From Nitrospirota bacterium (GTDB lineage Bacteria > Nitrospirota > Thermodesulfovibrionia > UBA6902): a stretch of DNA of 43,643 nt. The number at the start of each line of letters is the position of its first letter. Within the stretch, counting starts at the first letter, position 1. Location of the stretch: the NCBI GenBank assembly GCA_016222905.1, contig JACRPZ010000014.1, positions 1 through 43,643 of the forward strand, given 5' to 3'. Below are positions 31,696 to 43,105 of the stretch, one piece after another. Below the pieces are notes generated by a model. That model ran no database searches, was not told the DNA's origin, and saw nothing but the letters and a program-made list of their open reading frames with translations. Both the position numbers and the translations under genes were made by a program.

Positions 31696-31956
31696 TCATA
31701 CATTACTCATTTCAATATTCTCATCATCTGCTCCCTCTATGCTGAAATAGGCAAGATGGACGTTTTTTGCACCATTGATATCTTTCAACGACTCAAAATC
31801 TTTTTTGACTTTATCCATTGTCTCTCTCTCAATAAGAAAAACGATCTTTTCATTATTGATTTCATTAATCTCGATGTTTCTAATCCTCAGTTCATTAATA
31901 ATTTGCTCTACTTCACTTAACTTATTCACCTCAATAAATCCGCTTGCGATAACCAT
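31696..31956 (-). CDS. NapD-like chaperone, divergent copy
   Basis: An 86-residue ferredoxin-fold protein in the style of NapD: MVIASGFIEVNKLSEVEQII, a central hydrophobic strand and NAKNVHLAYFSIEG-like end. NapD binds the Tat signal of NapA and proofreads cofactor loading. The ATG at 31956 is chosen for its GGGAGGAAAC Shine-Dalgarno. It lies 29 bases after the clearer napD gene and is last in the nap operon. The assignment rests on context as much as sequence. Confidence 0.6.
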   Translation of the reverse strand: MVIASGFIEVNKLSEVEQIINELRIRNIEINEINNEKIVFLIERETMDKVKKDFESLKDINGAKNVHLAYFSIEGADDENIEMSNV

Positions 31957-31985
31957 GTTTCCTCCCGAATGCATCTGCTATCCAC

Positions 31986-32264
31986 TCACCCTATCTCTTC
32001 CTGTCTTTTGAGCTCATCCAGGGCGTCCGCCAGTTCATCTTCGCAATAGGAATAGGACAGGCTCGCGCTGTAAACAAAGGGGATGATTTGTATCTGCTTA
32101 AATCTTTCCGTCTGGTCATGTATGTTGTCGCCTTCTATGGTCGCAACTATATTCCCGTCAGGATCGTGAAAATGAACTTCGCAGCACCCGACAGAATTAA
32201 TATTCTTTATTACCTCCGGCAAGTGCTCTTTTGCGGTCTTGACAACAATGCTTGATACATTCAC
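31986..32264 (-). CDS. napD: Periplasmic nitrate reductase chaperone NapD
   Basis: A 92-residue NapD: NVSSIVVKTAKEHLPEVIKN, NIVATIEGDNIHDQTERF, then VYSASLSYSYCEDEL. These are the usual 'SSxVV', 'xxTIEG' and 'GVLSAxLxYxY.E' steps. It acts in the cytoplasm on the twin-arginine signal of NapA. It lies 17 bases after napB. Confidence 0.88.
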   Translation of the reverse strand: MNVSSIVVKTAKEHLPEVIKNINSVGCCEVHFHDPDGNIVATIEGDNIHDQTERFKQIQIIPFVYSASLSYSYCEDELADALDELKRQEEIG

Positions 32265-32281: not shown

Positions 32282-32827
32282 TTATTCTGCTGTAACGCCT
32301 TCGTTTAAGTTATCTATCAGATTTGACCTGTAATGCCCTTTATCATCCCTGAACCCGCCTTTAAAAATATTCTTTACTGCCGGTGTTAACTCTGTCTGTA
32401 TAACATGGCACTGCATGCAGTTATAACGGATTCCGGCCAGTTCCCCATCGAGGTCTTTCCCTGTAACGAAGTCCGTAAGATGGGATTTGGGGATTGGTGT
32501 TGCGCCAATGCTCACCGCCTCTTTCGGCATATGGCAGCCCATGCAGAGGTTTTCAGTCCGCGCTATCGGGAGCATTCCGGTGATGTCATGGGGAATAAGC
32601 GGAGGACTATTCTCAAAAGCCCTCTCGAATCTGGTGCTTGCCCCGGCTTCTTTTGTAATAGGATCTCCATGCACAGGGGATGAAGAGCTTTCATCATACA
32701 GGGTTTCATGCCTCAGGCCAAGCTCCTCTTCAGTATATGTTTTTGTCTGGGCACAGGAAAGCAATAAAACTGAAACCATTGATACGGACAATACCATCAT
32801 GATCCATATTTTTCTGTCTCGCAGCAT
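32282..32827 (-). CDS. napB: Periplasmic nitrate reductase diheme cytochrome NapB
   Basis: A 181-residue diheme c-type cytochrome that donates electrons to NapA. ENSPPLIPHDI is the NapB signature, followed by heme motifs CMGCH and CMQCH about 50 residues apart. The signal peptide ends VLLLSC, a lipobox, suggesting a lipoprotein form rather than the soluble type. GGAGGGATG precedes the ATG. It follows the eroded napGH segment. Confidence 0.92.
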   Translation of the reverse strand: MLRDRKIWIMMVLSVSMVSVLLLSCAQTKTYTEEELGLRHETLYDESSSSPVHGDPITKEAGASTRFERAFENSPPLIPHDITGMLPIARTENLCMGCHMPKEAVSIGATPIPKSHLTDFVTGKDLDGELAGIRYNCMQCHVIQTELTPAVKNIFKGGFRDDKGHYRSNLIDNLNEGVTAE

Positions 32828-32839
32828 GATACATCCCTC

Positions 32840-32946
32840 CTTTTTTATTTATAAACTTCTTTTGAATATATACTGCCGAATCGCATGGAGCTCTCTTTGC
32901 AAACCTCAATACATCTGCCGCAGTTGATGCTGTGCCTTCTTGATTA
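32840..32946 (-). pseudogene. Ferredoxin scrap, probable napH (or napG) C-terminus
   Basis: In a frame shifted by one from the napG fragment, the minus strand encodes RRHSINCGRCIEVCKESSM and RFGSIYSKEVYK before a TAA. This is a C-x2-C-x2-C-x3-C cluster whose first Cys is Ser (AGC instead of TGC). It has no start codon and follows a stop at 32944-32946. It fits the last ferredoxin motif of a Nap iron-sulfur protein left behind by a deletion. Confidence 0.6.
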
Positions 32947-32947
32947 A

Positions 32948-33202
32948 TTAGAATTTCTCCTCATTCAGATAATCCTCCGGCTTCTTGCTGCTCCGAGGAG
33001 TCTGAGTCGTCATGTCTTCCGTCACATCATTACTTGTACATGAGGCTGGAAATTCCTTCTCCTTAAAGACACCGGGCGGTCTTAATATCAAAGGAGCTGA
33101 TTTGTCTTCTTCCATAAAGTCGCTCCGAGCGAGTCCTTCTGCGGCTGCAAGACCGAAACCCCTTAAAGTCTCCAGTAAAAACTTTCTTCTTTCAGGTATC
33201 AT
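32948..33202 (-). pseudogene. napG: Truncated napG (N-terminal part only)
   Basis: An 84-residue reading frame. The first 55 residues match NapG: RRKFLLETLRGFGLAAAEGL, a twin-arginine-like start, then LILRPPGVFKEKEFPASC, where the first ferredoxin Cys appears. After this Cys the sequence becomes Ser/Thr/Lys-rich with no further Cys and stops. NapG normally holds four [4Fe-4S] clusters in about 250 residues. It lies between napA and napB, the NapGH position in epsilonproteobacterial-type nap operons. Confidence 0.75.
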
Positions 33203-33306: not shown

Positions 33307-36078
33307 TTACGCTTTATATACCTTTACCGCGCATTTCTTAAAATCAGTCTCTTTGGAGATCGGACAGGTGGCGTCAAGAGTCACCTTGTTTATCAGTACA
33401 TGCTCATCAAACCACGGGACAAAGATCAATCCTTTCGGAGGGTTATTCCGCCCCCTTGTCTCAACATGCACCTTTACCTTCCCCCTTCTTGATTCCACCC
33501 AGATGAGGTCGCCGTCTTTTACGTTGTATGACTTTGCGTCCTTCGGGTTCATGGAGCAGACGGCCTCGGGAACCGCCCGGTAAAGTTCAGGCACGCGCAT
33601 CGTCATTGTGCCGCTGTGCCAGTGTTCGAGCACCCTTCCGGTGCTGAGCCATAACGGATATTCATTGTCCGGTATCTCGGCAGGATCAATATAGTGCCTC
33701 AGGAATATCTTTGCCTTGTTCGGCAACTTGACCTTATCCGTGCCCTTGGGACCTATGAGGTCACCGGACGGCAGTTCCTTGAATGCCTTGCCGTAGAAGG
33801 CGAATTGCCCGCGATTCTCTGCGTTTGCATAAGGATCATATTCGGAATTGAATCTCCACAATGTCTCTTTTCCGTTAACTACCGGCCATCTCAATCCTCT
33901 CACTGTATGGTAAGTATCAAAATCAGCGAGGTCGTGCCCGTGGCCAAGACCGAATTTCCTGTACTCTTCCCACAGATATTTCTGAAGAAAGAAGCCATAA
34001 CCTTTAAATCCCGAAACATTTCTCTTGTCTCCGCCAACCTCTGAATTTAAAAAGCCTTTGCCCACAGGATCAGGCCACTTAAATGTCTTTGCTTCTTTGT
34101 TTGCAAAGAGCACGTCAAACAGGGTGTCGGTCTCTTTATATCCCATCGCCTTTGCTTTCTCTATTACATCCGGGAGGGTAACCTCAGGTGAAATCTTATG
34201 CTCCTTCCATACTTCCGCCAATGTTAACCGTTTTGAAAATTCAACCAGCTGCCATGTATCAGACATCGCATGCCCGACCGGCGTGACCTGTTGACGCCAA
34301 TGCTGCGTCCTTCTTTCGGCATTACCGTATGCGCCCCATTTCTCAAATATCATGGCGCTGGGTAAGATCAGATCCGCTACCTTCGCGGAAATTCCGGGAT
34401 ACGCCTCTGACACCACAATGAAGTTGTCCATCTCCCTTGCCGCCGTTATCCAGTGGTTCATATTCGCGGAGTTCTGCCAGGGATTGTTTACCTGTACCCA
34501 TGCCCATTTGATCTTTCCGTCTTCAAGGTCTCTCATGATCTTCACATAGTGTGAACCCGGGACGGGATTCAATGTGCCTTCAGGAAGCTTCCATATCTTT
34601 TCCGTAATCTCCCTGTGCTTTGGATTTGCGACAACCATGTCAGCGGGAAGCCTGTGTGAAAAAACTCCAACCTCTCTCGCAGTACCGCAGGCGCTCGGCT
34701 GTCCTGTAAGGCTGAATGCGCCATTGCCAGGCTGAGACTGTTTGCCGAGAAGCAGATGCACTGTGTAAGCCTGTTCATTGACCCACGTGCCGCGCACGTG
34801 CTGGTTAAATCCCATAGTCCAGAAGCTGACAACCTTTCTCGCTTTCGCGGCATAAAGATCAACAAGCTTAACAAGTTTCTTCTTGAAGTCCTCAAGAGGC
34901 TCGTCCGGGTCTCCCTTTGAGAGCGCTGCAACAAAATCAAGGGTATACGGCTCAAGCCCTTTTTTGAAATCCTCGAAGCTGATCAGCCAGTGATTATCAG
35001 GGGTCTTGGCGTTCTTCATCTCCATCTTCTGCCCCTCCTGTATGCCGAGGGAACTCATTGCCTGCGCCTCTTCTTTTGTGATTATTTTAAAGGCCTCTTT
35101 GCCTGCGGTATCAAGCTCTCCGGGTTTGTATTTAGCATGATTGACCTGGGGGCGTAATCCGTATCCGATATCTACGGGCCCGGTTGCAAAGACGCAGTTG
35201 TTCTCTACAAAACTCCGGTCAATCGCATCAGGACGGTTATAAACGATCTCACGTGTAATGTAATTTAGTATTGCAAGGTCAGTGTTGGGTTTAATTATGA
35301 TTTCCACATCCGAGATACTGGAGCACCTGTTTGCGAAGGTTGAGATATTGACGATATTTACCCAATCGGGTTTGCTCAGCTTCCTGTCGGTTATCTTTGA
35401 CCAAAGCACAGGGTGCATCTCAGCCATGTTTGCGCCCCAGAGAATGATCGAATCCGCAAAGTGCATATCGTCATAATTCCCGGCAGGCTCGTCTATGCCG
35501 AAGGTCTGCATAAATGCCGCAACCGCGCTTGCCATGCAGTGTCTTGCATTGGGGTCAATATTGTTGCTCCTGAACCCAGCCTTCATCAATTTAACAGCAG
35601 CGACCCCCTCCATGATCGTATACTGTCCTGAACCAAAGACCGCCACTCCGGTTGGTCCGAGTTCTGTATACGATTTCTTAAATTGCTTTGACATCTCCTC
35701 AAAGGCCCTTTTCCATGTAACAGGTTTGAATTTGCCCTTCTTGTCGAAATCACCTTTATCATTTACCCTCAAAAGTGGTTCGGTAAGCCTGTCTGCGCCG
35801 TACATGATCTTTGCGTTGAAATATCCCTTGATGCAGTTAAGCCCCATGTTCACAGGCGCGGCTGGGTCTCCCTTGACCGCGACTATCATATCGTCCTTTG
35901 TCGCCACCATGATGCCGCATCCGGTTCCGCAGAACCTGCACACAGCCTTGTCCCATCGCCATCCTGCCTCTGTTTCTTTGGCGATCGCCTTTAATTCATC
36001 CGGCACCGCCATACCTATTGCTGTTGCAGCGCTTACTGCCGCCGTTGTCTTCAGAAAGTCTCTTCTGCTGATATTCAT
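33307..36078 (-). CDS. napA: Periplasmic nitrate reductase catalytic subunit NapA
   Basis: A 923-residue molybdopterin enzyme reducing nitrate to nitrite. The Tat signal is [18 protein letters not shown] (residues 3-20). The [4Fe-4S] ligands are Cys47, Cys50, Cys54 and Cys82 (CRFCGTGCG ... NCIKG). Cys181 in [10 protein letters not shown] is the expected molybdenum ligand. The length is near the epsilonproteobacterial form (about 925) and longer than E. coli NapA. A GGAGGTG Shine-Dalgarno precedes the ATG. It is first in its operon, after the terminator of the nitrite reductase gene. Confidence 0.95.
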
Positions 36079-36219: not shown

Positions 36220-37920
36220 CTACTTGGCCGGTGTGGCTGCTGCCGCCGGTTTTGGAGCCATTGCATTAGTAAGAATCTCGATACCTTTCAAGGCTTCATC
36301 AACAGACTTTGTAAGCGCCTCTCTTGCCATTTGAGGATTGTGGAAACCATCTGAATTCTCAGCAGTCCAGAATTCCCAAAGTATATGTGCCTTAAGATGC
36401 TGATCCTGCGCCTGCTTTATGATTTCAGCATCTACCCCTGCTTTCTTTGCTTCAAGTATTTTATCAATTAATACAGACAACCGGAATTCAGCCTTTCTCA
36501 TCTTGCCTCTTATGTGCGCCTTTATTGAATCAATGGCGTATTTTGCCTGCTCTTCAGTCCATTTAGGATGACACTTGAGGCAAGTCTCCTTAAGCTGAAC
36601 CTTGGGCGTAACCGCAAAGTGAGATGTATAGACCTTCCCCGTCTTCTTGTCCTTTACCTTCGGGGTATGACAGTCATTGCATCCTGCGCCTGCCTTGGCA
36701 TGCTTTGAATTGTAGTACGCCTCTGATTCAGGATGCTGCGCCTTCCAGAGAAGTCCTCCTGTTAAACCGTGTTTGAAGTCGAGGAAGCTTACTTTGTTAA
36801 CATAGTGGTCATAGAGGCCGAATACATCCTTATATGGGAAATGATTTGTCCTCCTGTCAGCCATTGTTACTGAATATTTTGACGTATCAGGATTTTTGGG
36901 ATCATAGCCCGGATTGCAGTTGTACTCAACATGACACTGTCCGCACAGCAGTCTTGTATCATACTTGTCAAGCAGGGCTATCTTTCTTGTAAAGCCTCTC
37001 ACGCCCATATCAATGACCTTTATCCCTGTCCTGTTAGGGTCTTTGTGCCAGAGGGTATCTCCATCAGGTCTCGTAAGCGCGTCAATTAATCCATCCCTTA
37101 CGATCCTCGGTTTTGCAGCGTGTGAGTCATGGCAGTAAATGCAGTTAAGCCCATGCTGAAGGTCTTTTACAAGCTCAGTTACTTTTGATGTCCTTGACCA
37201 CTCTGCGCCGGTAACCGGATCACCCATATATGACCATTTAAGGATCTGGTCCTGGGATTTGCATTGCAGACATACAGGATTCGCTGCTGCTGCGCTCTGA
37301 GGGATAAACGCTTTGTGATCAGTCGCATCGGGATAATTATCCTGAAGTATGTCCCATGCCTTGCCTGTTTCAAAAAGATACTCCCATCCGTTTTTACCCT
37401 GGAATCTTCCGCCATAGGACCTGTCAACAATGAGATGGTCCACAAGCATCCATGGATGGCTTCTTGTAAGATTATGCTCTTTTGTGAAACCGTGGCCTGC
37501 CATCAGTTTATCCCAGAACGGATTAGGAGCCCTGTTCGTAAGCTGGGACTTTTCATCCCTCGCCGGTCTGTGATAGGCGGTCTGCATAAAGCTGTTATAC
37601 TGCTCTTTATGGCACTGACCGCACGCCTCCCATGATGTATCTGTTACAGGCCTTGTATCCGGACCGGGGCCCTTCAGATGTGCATCAAGTCCCTTATGAC
37701 AATTCGAACAGTTAACCTTTGCATGTTTACCCATTGTGTGAAGTTCTTTAATCTGGTCATGACAGCCGTAGCATGTCTCAACCTTTACATCCTTTTCCTT
37801 TTGCGCGTTCTTCTTTGCAGGCGTACTTTCATACTGAGCATCTACACCTGAATAGTAGATTCCGATTGTCAGAACGAGCGTAAAGAGCGTTGCAAGCAAA
37901 ATGTAAAATTTTTTCTTCAT
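36220..37920 (-). CDS. Octaheme cytochrome c nitrite reductase (ammonia-forming)
   Basis: A 566-residue exported protein with a signal peptide (residues 1-28). Eight heme motifs are visible: CYGCH (50), CSNCH (71), CGQCH (100), CLQCK (217), CIYCH (260), CGQCH (326), CNDCH (414) and CLKCH (447). Heme 4 with Lys as axial ligand is the catalytic heme of NrfA-type enzymes. The sequence EYNC places Tyr333 two residues before Cys335, the pair that forms a Tyr-Cys bond in the Thioalkalivibrio octaheme enzyme (TvNiR). It should reduce nitrite to ammonium with six electrons. The ATG at 37920 is chosen for its GGAGGAG; an earlier ATG at 37959 has none. A TATAAT on the minus strand at 37998-38003 may be its -10. 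Confidence 0.93.
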   Translation of the reverse strand: MKKKFYILLATLFTLVLTIGIYYSGVDAQYESTPAKKNAQKEKDVKVETCYGCHDQIKELHTMGKHAKVNCSNCHKGLDAHLKGPGPDTRPVTDTSWEACGQCHKEQYNSFMQTAYHRPARDEKSQLTNRAPNPFWDKLMAGHGFTKEHNLTRSHPWMLVDHLIVDRSYGGRFQGKNGWEYLFETGKAWDILQDNYPDATDHKAFIPQSAAAANPVCLQCKSQDQILKWSYMGDPVTGAEWSRTSKVTELVKDLQHGLNCIYCHDSHAAKPRIVRDGLIDALTRPDGDTLWHKDPNRTGIKVIDMGVRGFTRKIALLDKYDTRLLCGQCHVEYNCNPGYDPKNPDTSKYSVTMADRRTNHFPYKDVFGLYDHYVNKVSFLDFKHGLTGGLLWKAQHPESEAYYNSKHAKAGAGCNDCHTPKVKDKKTGKVYTSHFAVTPKVQLKETCLKCHPKWTEEQAKYAIDSIKAHIRGKMRKAEFRLSVLIDKILEAKKAGVDAEIIKQAQDQHLKAHILWEFWTAENSDGFHNPQMAREALTKSVDEALKGIEILTNAMAPKPAAAATPAK

Positions 37921-38077
37921 CTTAATACTCCTCCTTTTTGTTTTGATTAGTGCTATCACCTGATATTTGCATTTAAATTTGTTCCGTTGAAATACCGATT
38001 ATATGATTAAAGATTAGCAGGTAATTTTGTAAATGTGCTGTTAATGTGTGTAAAGGATTGGTAAATTTTGGGAAATG

Positions 38078-38184: not shown

Positions 38185-38868
38185 TTAATCTGCGAATCTG
38201 TAGCCTGCGCCGGGCACAGTGAGGATATACTTTGGATCTGAATGGTCTTTCTCGATCTTCTGCCTGAGATGTTGGATATGGACATCTATTACCCTGCTCC
38301 ATGAATAAATCTGCGAACCTTTCCAGACGGCTTTTCTTATTGCGTCCCTGCTTAACGCCTCTCCCCTGTGAGATATAAAAAAACAGAGCAGTTCATATTC
38401 TTTTGGGGTAAGGTTAATCTTTTTTCCGGAGACCGTGACAAGATGTTTCCTGAAAGCAATTTTGATGCTGCCGATACTAACTTCTTCTTTTGTAATATGA
38501 GGAACCGCCCTTCTAAGGCAGGCCTTTATCCTCGCCAAAAGCTCAAGCGTCTCAAAAGGCTTTACCACATAATCATCAGCGCCGCTTTCGAGGCCGATGA
38601 CTTTATCAGAGACCTTATCCTTTGCCGTAAGCATTATGATGGGAATTTGCGGAAGCTCTTTTCTTAGATTGCGGCATATCTCAATCCCGTCTCCGTCAGG
38701 TAGAGTCAGGTCAAGAAGTATGAGGTCAGGCTGGGTTTCGGATATCAGCTCCTGCGCCTTTGCCCAGTTATCCGCCGTATCAACCTCATATTCATGGAGC
38801 TGAAGATTGGCCTTGAGCACCTTTAGTATATCTTTGTCATCATCAACAGCGAGGATTCTATTTTTCAT
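38185..38868 (-). CDS. OmpR-family response regulator
   Basis: A 227-residue regulator. The receiver domain has VDDD, phosphoacceptor Asp53 in LLDLTLPDGDG and Lys in VVKPF. A winged-helix DNA-binding domain follows (about 130-225): INLTPKEYELLCFFISHRGE and VIDVHIQHLRQKIE. It overlaps its kinase gene by 4 bases (ATGA). Placed next to nitrite and nitrate reductase genes, these are its most likely targets. Confidence 0.94.
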   Translation of the reverse strand: MKNRILAVDDDKDILKVLKANLQLHEYEVDTADNWAKAQELISETQPDLILLDLTLPDGDGIEICRNLRKELPQIPIIMLTAKDKVSDKVIGLESGADDYVVKPFETLELLARIKACLRRAVPHITKEEVSIGSIKIAFRKHLVTVSGKKINLTPKEYELLCFFISHRGEALSRDAIRKAVWKGSQIYSWSRVIDVHIQHLRQKIEKDHSDPKYILTVPGAGYRFAD

Positions 38869-40526
38869 TTTGACTCTACCACCTTCTTCGGTAACGTGAA
38901 GTAAAACGTGCTGCCCTTCAGATCTTCACTGCTTATCACATTAATTTCTCCGTTATGCGCCTCGATTATGCCCTTACATATCGCAAGCCCAAGTCCTGTG
39001 CCCTGCCGCCTGCCTATTGTAAAAAATTTATCAAATATCTTCTTCTGGACCTCATCTGGTATGCCGGGGCCTTTGTCTTTTACTGATACCGTAACTTCTT
39101 CTTCAGACTCTTTAGCTAATATAAATATATCGGAACCTTCCGGGCTGTAGTTGATTGCATTTGAGAAGAGATTTATCAAGACCTGTCTTATCCTGTCTTC
39201 ATCTGCATAAATAAATACCACGCCGGAAGCAGCAGTTATAATGAACGTTATCTTTCTTTCGCTTGCTATAGTTTGTAAGCCCGTGATTACTTCTTTAATA
39301 AGCGAGAGCAGATCTATTTCCCTTAACTCAAGAGCGAAAATCCCTGATTCTATACGCTCAATATCAAGAGTGTCGTTAACCATCCTTATCAGTCTGTCGG
39401 CATTGTTCTTTATCACATCAAAGAATTCCTGAAGATCGTTTGTGCTCCTCTCAGTTGCTGGAAGCATTGAAAACTTTGCGGTGATATAATCCATTGCACC
39501 TTTAATTGAGGTTAACGGTGTTCTCAGTTCGTGAGATACCTTTGCGATGAAATCGGATTTCTTCTCGTTTAATTCTGTAAGCCTGGCATTTGCATCAGCA
39601 AGGCTTTTTGTGGCGCTCTGCACCTTGTTTTCAAGGTCGCTATGATATTCCCTCAGAGATTCTGACATTGCGACAAACGCCTTGTTGAGATCCTCAAGTT
39701 CATCGCCGGTTCTCGTTACAGGTATTTCAGTCTCATCCCCTCTTGCAAACTCCATCATGGAGATCTTTAAACGGTTCACAGGACTCAATACCAGCTCCTT
39801 CATCATAATAAAGAGGACTATCATTAATATTATGATGGTGGCGATGCTCGTCAGCACTATTATCTTTTCTTCTGAATCTATTATTGCAATAGCATAATCC
39901 ATAGGGATAGAGACGCTTATGGCGCCCCTAACGTCCCCGACTTTATAGCCCTGATGCTCATGACATTTGAGACAAGACTTTTCAACATATAGCGGAGCTA
40001 TGTAGCGGTAAAAGTATGAAGCCCCTATTTTTTCCACCTTTGAAGATTCTTTTATCTGGTTTGATTCAAACGCCATCAACGAAGTTCGCTCGAATTCATC
40101 CGGCTTATTATTTGGATTAATCAGTTTAAGACTCGTTATATTGAACCAGTAAGCCCCGGCCTTTTTTGCATACTCCGATAATTCCTTGGTCACCATGGCA
40201 GGGCTTTCCTTTATATACTTTTTCCCGCCGATGTCTTCCATCTCCGCCTCGGAAAGATAGGGATTTGGTTTTTTCCATGGCACCTTTTCTACAAAAATGC
40301 CTCCGTGGTCTGCGATCCATCTTCTGGTAAGAACGATCTGCGTAAACAATGTCTTTGCCTGCATATTTAGTTGTTCTGTTATGAGTTTCCTGTCTTTTTT
40401 TATAATCAGATATGTTGATAAGCTCATGGCTATGGTCAATACTACAGCTGTGCCTATGACAAATTTAAGGCTGAGGCTGATCTTTAACGCCCTGAATTCT
40501 TTTAATAATTCCTTAAAACTCTTCAT
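38865..40526 (-). CDS. Sensor histidine kinase with Tll0287-like heme-type domain
   Basis: A 553-residue membrane kinase. A membrane helix (about 20-42) is followed by a periplasmic DUF3365/Tll0287-like domain (about 50-215) carrying CLKCH at 185-189, a c-type heme attachment motif. A second helix, HAMP, coiled coil, HisKA with KVSHELRTPLTSIKG and HATPase (DKGPGIPDEV, GTGLGLAICKG) follow. The heme suggests sensing of redox state or a small ligand such as NO. It has a TATAAT at 40541-40546 and a very short leader without Shine-Dalgarno. Cotranscribed with the regulator next to the nitrate/nitrite genes. Confidence 0.93.
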   Translation of the reverse strand: MKSFKELLKEFRALKISLSLKFVIGTAVVLTIAMSLSTYLIIKKDRKLITEQLNMQAKTLFTQIVLTRRWIADHGGIFVEKVPWKKPNPYLSEAEMEDIGGKKYIKESPAMVTKELSEYAKKAGAYWFNITSLKLINPNNKPDEFERTSLMAFESNQIKESSKVEKIGASYFYRYIAPLYVEKSCLKCHEHQGYKVGDVRGAISVSIPMDYAIAIIDSEEKIIVLTSIATIIILMIVLFIMMKELVLSPVNRLKISMMEFARGDETEIPVTRTGDELEDLNKAFVAMSESLREYHSDLENKVQSATKSLADANARLTELNEKKSDFIAKVSHELRTPLTSIKGAMDYITAKFSMLPATERSTNDLQEFFDVIKNNADRLIRMVNDTLDIERIESGIFALELREIDLLSLIKEVITGLQTIASERKITFIITAASGVVFIYADEDRIRQVLINLFSNAINYSPEGSDIFILAKESEEEVTVSVKDKGPGIPDEVQKKIFDKFFTIGRRQGTGLGLAICKGIIEAHNGEINVISSEDLKGSTFYFTLPKKVVESK

Positions 40527-42116: not shown

Positions 42117-42242
42117 TAAAATAGCATAACTGCGACTAAATGAAGTCAGCAAAATGTGCGCAATATATTTTAATACAATAATTCAATATGTTATGCAGTT
42201 ATTATGAAAATTTAAATGAAACATGTAATATGAAAATAATGC

Positions 42243-42271
42243 TTGACATTTCATTAAATATAGTGTATCAT
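42243..42271 (+). promoter_or_regulatory. Promoter of the transposase gene, leaderless arrangement
   Basis: TTGACA (42243-42248), a 17-base spacer and TATCAT (42266-42271) end 6 bases before the ATG at 42278, so the predicted transcript begins at or next to the start codon. No Shine-Dalgarno is present. Confidence 0.7.
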
Positions 42272-42277
42272 TTAATC

Positions 42278-43105
42278 ATGAACAAGATACCGAAAGAAAA
42301 AAGAGTCCAGATACTTCACATGTTATGCGAAGGTTCGTCTATGCGTTCCATATCTCGGATCGTTGATGTATCCATAAACACTGTTACGAAATTGCTTATA
42401 GACGCTGGGACTGCCTGCGCCGAATATCAGAATGAGCATTTAAGGAACTTAACCTGTAACAAAATACAGTGTGATGAAATCTGGTCATTCTGCTATTCCA
42501 AAGACAAGAACGTGCCGAACTATAAAAAGGGCAAGTTTGGTTATGGTGATATTTATACATGGACAGCTATTTGCGCTGATTCTAAGCTCGTTCCGTCTTT
42601 CTTTATAGGGACACGTGACCTTGAATCAGCAAAGGTATTCATGAATGATTTAGCAAGCCGTATGAAGCATAGAGTCCAGTTAACTACGGATGGACACAAA
42701 GCACATATTGAAGCCGTTGAAGGTGCTTTCGGTTCTGAGGTAGATTTCAGTCAGTTAGTAAAGCTGTATGGCGTTGAAAGGATAGAAGCAGAAGCCAGAT
42801 ACAGCCCTGCTAAATGCATTGGAGCTAAGAAACAAAGGGTAACAGGCAGTCCTGATGATGAATTTGTATCTACGAGCTATGTAGAGCGTCAAAACCTTAC
42901 TATGAGAATGAGTATGAGACGGTTTACAAGGCTAACAAACGGATTCTCTAAAAAAGTAGACAATCATTTTTATGCGCTTGCCCTTTACTTCATGTATTAC
43001 AACTTCTGCCGGATACATAAAACACTAAGGGTTACTCCTGCAATGGCGGCTGGTGTTACTGATAGGCTTTGGGAAATTGAGGATATACTTTCCTTATTAA
43101 ATTAG
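42278..43105 (+). CDS. IS1-like DDE transposase
   Basis: A 275-residue transposase. An N-terminal helix-turn-helix (QILHMLCEGSSMRSISRIVD) is followed by a DDE core: CDEIWSFCYSK (first Asp), TTDGHKAHIEAV (second Asp) and YVERQNLTMRMSMRRFTRLT (Glu). This matches the single-ORF group annotated as IS1-like in many environmental bacteria. The ATG at 42278 is chosen; a start at 42188 would run through the promoter. No terminal inverted repeats or target duplication could be seen, so the element may be immobile or its ends short. Confidence 0.85.
   Translation: MNKIPKEKRVQILHMLCEGSSMRSISRIVDVSINTVTKLLIDAGTACAEYQNEHLRNLTCNKIQCDEIWSFCYSKDKNVPNYKKGKFGYGDIYTWTAICADSKLVPSFFIGTRDLESAKVFMNDLASRMKHRVQLTTDGHKAHIEAVEGAFGSEVDFSQLVKLYGVERIEAEARYSPAKCIGAKKQRVTGSPDDEFVSTSYVERQNLTMRMSMRRFTRLTNGFSKKVDNHFYALALYFMYYNFCRIHKTLRVTPAMAAGVTDRLWEIEDILSLLN

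Follow-up and report, generated by a model that had tools for sequence, protein, structure and literature searches.

Introduction

The closest described counterparts of the locus reported here are the Nap system of 'Candidatus Sulfobium' Nbg-4, a member of the Nitrospirota whose NapGH has been described as a quinol dehydrogenase (PMC5812927), and the NapAGHB(D) systems of Wolinella and Campylobacter. In the two Campylobacterota tested, nitrate respiration required NapH, and NapG was important for it (PMC6195509). In C. jejuni, Qcr is required by both Nap and Tor; napH is indispensable and loss of napG strongly harmful, the residual growth being attributed to NrfH, which is thought to replace NapG in part (PMC6195509). 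The role of NapGH is disputed, being seen either as that of a quinol dehydrogenase or as that of an aid to the maturation of NapA, the electrons then being delivered by Qcr (PMC6195509). In Azospira, quinol dehydrogenases of the NapC family are mutually substitutable (PMC5845722).

Here, we describe a nap locus which shares with those of Nbg-4 and of Wolinella/Campylobacter the homologues of napA, napB and napD, the gene order of its relatives and an operon devoid of napC, but in which the napG and napH genes present in those systems are reduced to stubs. As in C. jejuni, the genome encodes a Rieske/cytochrome b complex, which is a candidate donor to NapB. In C. jejuni, however, napGH is kept and napH is needed, whereas both genes are lost here; further, the neighbouring gene of the complex here encodes a pentahaem cytochrome, and a link to NapB is putative. 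This lineage-specific loss of napGH with retention of napABD is real.

The nap locus and its genome

The window, that is, the whole stretch of 43,643 nucleotides that was analyzed, is the entire contig C4 of genome G000 (2.84 Mb in 90 contigs, estimated to be 100% complete), and its closest NapA sequences come from Nitrospirota metagenome-assembled genomes (MAGs). The following nap-associated genes, all on the minus strand, are retained:

38185..40526, minus strand: sensor kinase (with haem motif) and response regulator of the nap block, 80% and 87% identical to the nap-adjacent pair of G031
36220..37959, minus strand: octahaem nitrite reductase of the ONR/TvNiR type (CXXCK at the catalytic haem), located upstream of napA in the same orientation
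33307..36078, minus strand: napA, 923 codons, intact (NCBIfam NapA equivalog, 1406 bits, full length)
32282..32827, minus strand: napB, dihaem small subunit, intact (Pfam NapB, 109 bits)
31986..32264, minus strand: napD, chaperone, GTG start (Pfam NapD, 76 bits, full length)
31696..31974, minus strand: second NapD-like protein (Pfam NapD, 23.8 bits, under the curated cut-off)

The genes napA, napB and napD and the octahaem reductase gene upstream of them have uninterrupted open reading frames (ORFs), which, together with the full profile matches, bear out the statement of a first-pass annotation of this DNA that napA, napB and napD are intact. NapA is full length, with a Tat signal, the N-terminal [4Fe-4S] Cys motif and the Mo-ligand Cys (CRFCGTGCG...C and NARHCMAS), and NapB contains both of its CXXCH haem sites (CMGCH and CMQCH). 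The octahaem gene encodes eight CXXCH/CXXCK motifs and its product matched the eight-heme nitrite reductase structures 2zo5 and 2ot4 with 520 bits over ~514 residues. In other relatives with a kinase/regulator pair beside nap, the pair is 59–76% identical to that of the window.

Two minor features were also observed. The divergent second NapD-like gene follows napD, and its homologues adjoin the response-regulator or octahaem gene in four nap regions of relatives (L028, L031, L034 and L036). Near the contig end, positions 42188–43105 encode a 305-aa protein resembling an insertion-sequence transposase, with a GC content of 36% vs. 44%, which had no Pfam match at E 1e-5.

Two deletions within napG and napH

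According to the first-pass annotation, two scraps of napGH were left at this site, and a comparison with relatives was proposed. Full napG and napH were found at exactly the napA–napB site in 15 of the 16 relatives examined, in the order napA-napG-napH-napB(-napD) and with 260–262 codons (napG) and about 265 codons (napH) in those 15, which we used as reference lengths. The distance between napA and napB is ~480 bp in the window, compared to roughly 1.65–1.85 kb in relatives with both genes. The losses and the presence of napG and napH pieces in separate frames were thus confirmed, while the anatomy differed from that initially described, as there are two deletions and both ends of napG are kept:

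33038..33202, minus strand: napG remnant, N-terminal piece, residues 1–55 (twin-arginine, LRPPG, first cluster Cys), from profile match and alignment
33029..33037, minus strand: junction of deletion 1 inside napG, codons T-S-N, from the spacing of the NapG pieces vs. L024 and DNA alignment
32948..33028, minus strand: napG remnant, C-terminal tail, residues 59–84, ending DYLNEEKF, with the original stop, from the match to the L024 tail
32845..32928, minus strand: napH remnant, last ~25 codons (INCGRCIEVCKESSMRFGSIYSKEVYK, stop), from the NapH profile and tblastn to the NapH C-termini of relatives

The 84-codon ORF at 32948–33202 (minus strand) has a NapG-like start (NCBIfam PRK09476, 33.5 bits, residues 3–56 corresponding to profile positions 9–62 of 254). 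Both this profile and the alignment with relatives agree with the earlier reading of about 55 NapG residues up to the first cluster Cys. The stretch after residue 55, previously taken as non-homologous, is in fact NapG's own C-terminal tail: residues 59–84 matched the NapG tail of L024 with 23 of 24 residues identical (tblastn). Deletion 1 amounts to 534 bp, since the two NapG pieces are spaced by 708 nt in L024 (9053 and 8345) vs. 174 nt here; it is in frame and removed 178 codons while the start and stop were retained. Instead of the several [4Fe-4S] motifs that follow the Tat signal in NapG, the first cluster Cys alone survives.

Through deletion 2, napH lost about 720 bp, and part of the intergenic sequence was removed as well. 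The scrap left at 32845–32928 is the NapH C-terminus (PRK09477 profile positions 261–282 of 286, E 2.6e-4), in a frame different from that of the napG ORF; the membrane-spanning segments of NapH are missing, and neither of its two ferredoxin motifs is complete. It starts inside the last ferredoxin motif, whose first Cys is lost, reading ...HSINCGRC here and ...GECINCGRC in the relatives. A ferredoxin scrap in another frame with a Cys-to-Ser change had been noted before; scrap, frame and Ser are all present, but the Ser sits at the edge of deletion 2 and need not stem from a point mutation. A single deletion fusing napG to the end of napH, the event originally proposed, was rejected, because the NapG tail and its stop codon stand between the two remnants.

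A lone napH C-terminal fragment (84% identical, with stop) was also observed at G024:C24:6225-6416, additional to the intact napH of G024 and on a different contig.

The remnants have decayed while napA and napB are conserved

Positions identical in all 15 relatives were considered invariant. Five of 41 such positions are changed in the stubs of the window, compared to 3 of 544 in NapA and none of 52 in NapB (Fisher p 4e-5). The changes are G20E, W24R, G31D and A43V in the N-terminal NapG piece (NapG-N) and A89S in the C-terminal NapH piece (NapH-C; stub-alignment numbering), and no relative exceeds 3 changes in about 42 stub invariants. Further, the hydrophobic peak of the NapG signal peptide is 0.88 here vs. 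1.05–1.67 in relatives.

Codon models were then fitted on the napA tree, with a stub alignment of 97 codons. The dN/dS of napA was 0.047 overall and about 0.06 on the window branch (best value on a coarse grid). With branch lengths tied to those of napA, all stub pieces pooled showed a window-branch dN/dS of 0.52, which differed from the background of 0.083 (p 3e-11) and from 1 (p 0.0015), and the identical test on the branches of five relatives yielded 0.05–0.12. Taken separately under the same tying, values were 0.87 for NapG-N (95% CI 0.49–1.27), 0.72 for NapH-C (CI 0.33–1.27) and 0.09 for the NapG tail (CI 0.005–0.40), the latter differing from the other pieces (p 0.005). When branch lengths were left free, stub dN/dS was 0.12–0.14 with no significant rise (p 0.23–0.66), as the 97-codon alignment stretches the branch; this fit demands a window branch of 2.5–4.7 vs. 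0.75 for napA. Raw codon counts support the tied fit over the free-branch fit: compared to L024, NapG-N has synonymous-only differences in 15 and replacing differences in 18 of 53 codons, while the corresponding numbers for napA are 284 and 59 of 920. In the NapG tail, there are nine synonymous differences and one replacing difference to L024.

These codon patterns suggest that the napG and napH stubs are pseudogenes drifting almost neutrally, and the NapG tail looks constrained. NapA, NapB and NapD appear to be under purifying selection, and the reductase is most likely still working.

The combination of decayed stubs with conserved napA and napB is difficult to reconcile with either a misassembly or decay of the operon as a whole. 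In the first case, the organism would possess intact napGH and the contig would have been joined across a gap, a reading to which the fragmentation of the assembly into 90 contigs, the unusual occurrence of two separate deletions within 1.5 kb and the mosaic sequence lend some weight (napB is nearer other lineages, with 84% identity to L026, than L024, with 65%, which is nearest in napA and napG). However, a misjoin should leave flanks as conserved as those of the relatives and would not yield decayed ones, so the changes in NapG-N and NapH-C at residues invariant in 15 relatives and the lost hydrophobic peak point to pseudogene decay. Since, in addition, the join preserves the reading frame as well as the start and stop, and the missing parts have no second copy anywhere in the genome, we regard an assembly or binning artefact as a very remote prospect.

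A decaying Nap system, in which NapGH was lost first and NapABD would follow, is in line with the need for NapGH in Nap-dependent nitrate respiration of the tested Campylobacterota (PMC6195509): loss of both proteins could disable Nap here, which counts against the explanation that we favor, namely that NapABD remains under selection without NapGH. Nevertheless, the napA branch kept its low dN/dS, and the invariants of NapA and NapB their conservation, while the stubs drifted across most of that same branch, and the napA, napB, napD and octahaem reductase ORFs are all open. Whole-system decay is therefore unlikely, and the suggestion that the operon is starting to decay finds no support, near-neutral evolution being confined to the napG and napH stubs.

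The 84-residue ORF could also be read as a functional mini-NapG without clusters, whose conserved YLN tail is kept for a non-redox role. A deletion length that is a multiple of three, the intact start and stop, the constrained tail and the YL[ND] ending of 66 of 73 complete NapG proteins across phyla would fit with this. On the other hand, one in three random deletions stays in frame, the tail evidence comprises 22 codons only, the N-terminal piece is near-neutral and the less hydrophobic signal-peptide core makes export doubtful. We consider a functional mini-NapG very unlikely; if it did exist, it would reveal that NapG has a function independent of quinol oxidation, e.g., in the maturation or assembly of NapA.

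As an observation in its own right, the NapG proteins of several phyla (L041–L120) consist, at their C-terminal side, of a variable linker followed by the short YL[ND] motif, which is replaced by LDSLND or LDTLND in seven Sulfuricurvum/Campylobacterales sequences. No description of this C-terminal motif was found in a literature search.

Other Nap loci without napGH

The 80 best NapA loci from GTDB genomes comprised 71 with both napG and napH, 4 cut by contig ends and 5 without either gene at the locus. In four of the five genomes with a napGH-less locus, no strong NapH was found anywhere (best hits 0–40 bits). The Sulfuricurvum and Neomarinimicrobiota loci (L061, L099, L065 and L075) resemble that of the window in having napA-napB(-napD) with napGH absent, but differ in that no stubs were detected in them and in that those of Sulfuricurvum carry a ferredoxin-motif gene after napB. 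Hence, the lack of napGH has parallels elsewhere; the peculiarity of the present case is that the loss is seen part-way, as stubs, and in a family in which both genes are otherwise retained.

One genome of the family, G025, showed napA and most of napG without napH, napB and napD (L033, G025:C1:616000-633000). A second napA fragment of 175 residues is located about 480 kb away, near a kinase/regulator pair (L190, G025:C1:136000-150000). This genome was rejected as a second case of napGH loss, because the napA fragment elsewhere and a completeness of 78% make a rearranged or misassembled operon as likely.

Candidate electron donors to NapB

Profile searches of the 100%-complete genome detected neither napG nor napH at the family cut-off outside the locus, and a close NapH query also found none. 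NapH-profile hits on contigs C69, C82 and C90 were rejected as a second napH: all were below the cut-off, with a CcoG-like protein on C69 and other NapH/CcoG-like ferredoxin proteins on C82 and C90. Rnf, encoded at about 13–19 kb of the window, was likewise rejected as NapGH, as its NapG/NapH matches reach ferredoxin-motif level only.

The search for napC, napGH and other quinol dehydrogenases in the genome, which had been recommended initially, did reveal NrfH/NapC-like cytochromes and a Rieske/cytochrome b pair. A 347-aa, 11-haem protein (C29:27.8-28.9 kb) scored 26.7 bits with Pfam Cytochrom_NNT, over the cut-off of 24.1, and a 293-aa, 10-haem protein (C23:27.8-28.7 kb) scored 23.6 bits, under the same cut-off. 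Their N-termini are NrfH-like, with 50 and 45 bits, respectively, both under the NrfH cut-off of 134, and the C29 protein matched the NrfH structure 2j7a weakly. The C29 cytochrome gene adjoins NrfD-like and Fe-S genes as well as adjacent genes for a Qcr-type Rieske protein (53 bits) and cytochrome b (Cytochrome_B, 160 bits). Neither the C29 nor the C23 cytochrome was present at E<=1e-40 in the other napA-bearing genomes of the family (absent from 17/17); both occur in family members without napA.

Most likely, NapB would now receive its electrons from a host module, either the NrfH/NapC-like multihaem cytochromes or the Rieske/cytochrome b complex. The proposal that Nap must draw on another donor gains support from the lack of a second napGH, the purifying selection on napA and napB and the presence of alternative quinol-oxidising modules, from which we infer the donor. 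Yet G009, with a NapC-family protein (168 bits), and G012, with a cytochrome b complex, still keep napGH, indicating that another donor is not sufficient for napGH loss. The association between donors and loss is that of one loss event in one lineage.

With napGH lost and napAB selected, the locus amounts to an experiment made by nature: should Nap be active, this host would be able to do without either of the roles ascribed to NapGH. It also calls for caution, in that napA in a MAG is no default proof of NapGH-dependent nitrate respiration.

Origin of the nap block

In the napA tree, the window sequence is sister to that of G031 (support 0.999), whose sensor kinase and response regulator are also the closest ones, with shared gene order. 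By contrast, Ffh, a housekeeping gene in the window and the one marker used for species placement, groups G000 with G005 and G039 (97/95) and rejects a grouping of G000 with G031 (p-AU 9e-11). In G005 and G039, napA is absent, but both cytochromes and cytochrome b are present. From this mismatch and from the presence of the donors without napA in G005 and G039, we infer that the nap block came by transfer into a lineage which already possessed these donors, and that acquisition preceded napGH loss.

Parts of the block have separate affinities. As napB is nearer L025/L026 than L024, a recombination point would lie in the segment separating napB from the napG tail. This is also the site of the napH loss, and both may go back to the same event. 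The octahaem gene of the window matches that of G032 in type (84%) and differs from the one in G031.

The joint explanation that we consider probable is that napG and napH are pseudogenes, that NapABD is under selection, that the nap block was acquired and that a host quinol dehydrogenase feeds NapB. In such a scenario, the block (sensor kinase, response regulator, octahaem gene, napA onward) would have come from a different lineage within the family, into a recipient whose own quinol-oxidising cytochromes made NapGH dispensable. Two deletions would then have taken the iron-sulfur clusters of NapG and the whole membrane part of NapH, the remnants drifting thereafter, and NapB would have been re-plugged to the host quinol dehydrogenase. 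The locus would thus be an example of a respiratory reductase that passed from one lineage to another and whose electron supply was probably switched to the quinol-oxidising cytochromes of the new host.

Finally, the octahaem cytochrome beside nap was found to vary, the ONR/TvNiR type being present here and in L028 and another type, of about 370–515 aa, in several other regions. These differing genes occupy a similar position upstream of napA (L024–L038), with the same kinase/regulator alongside.
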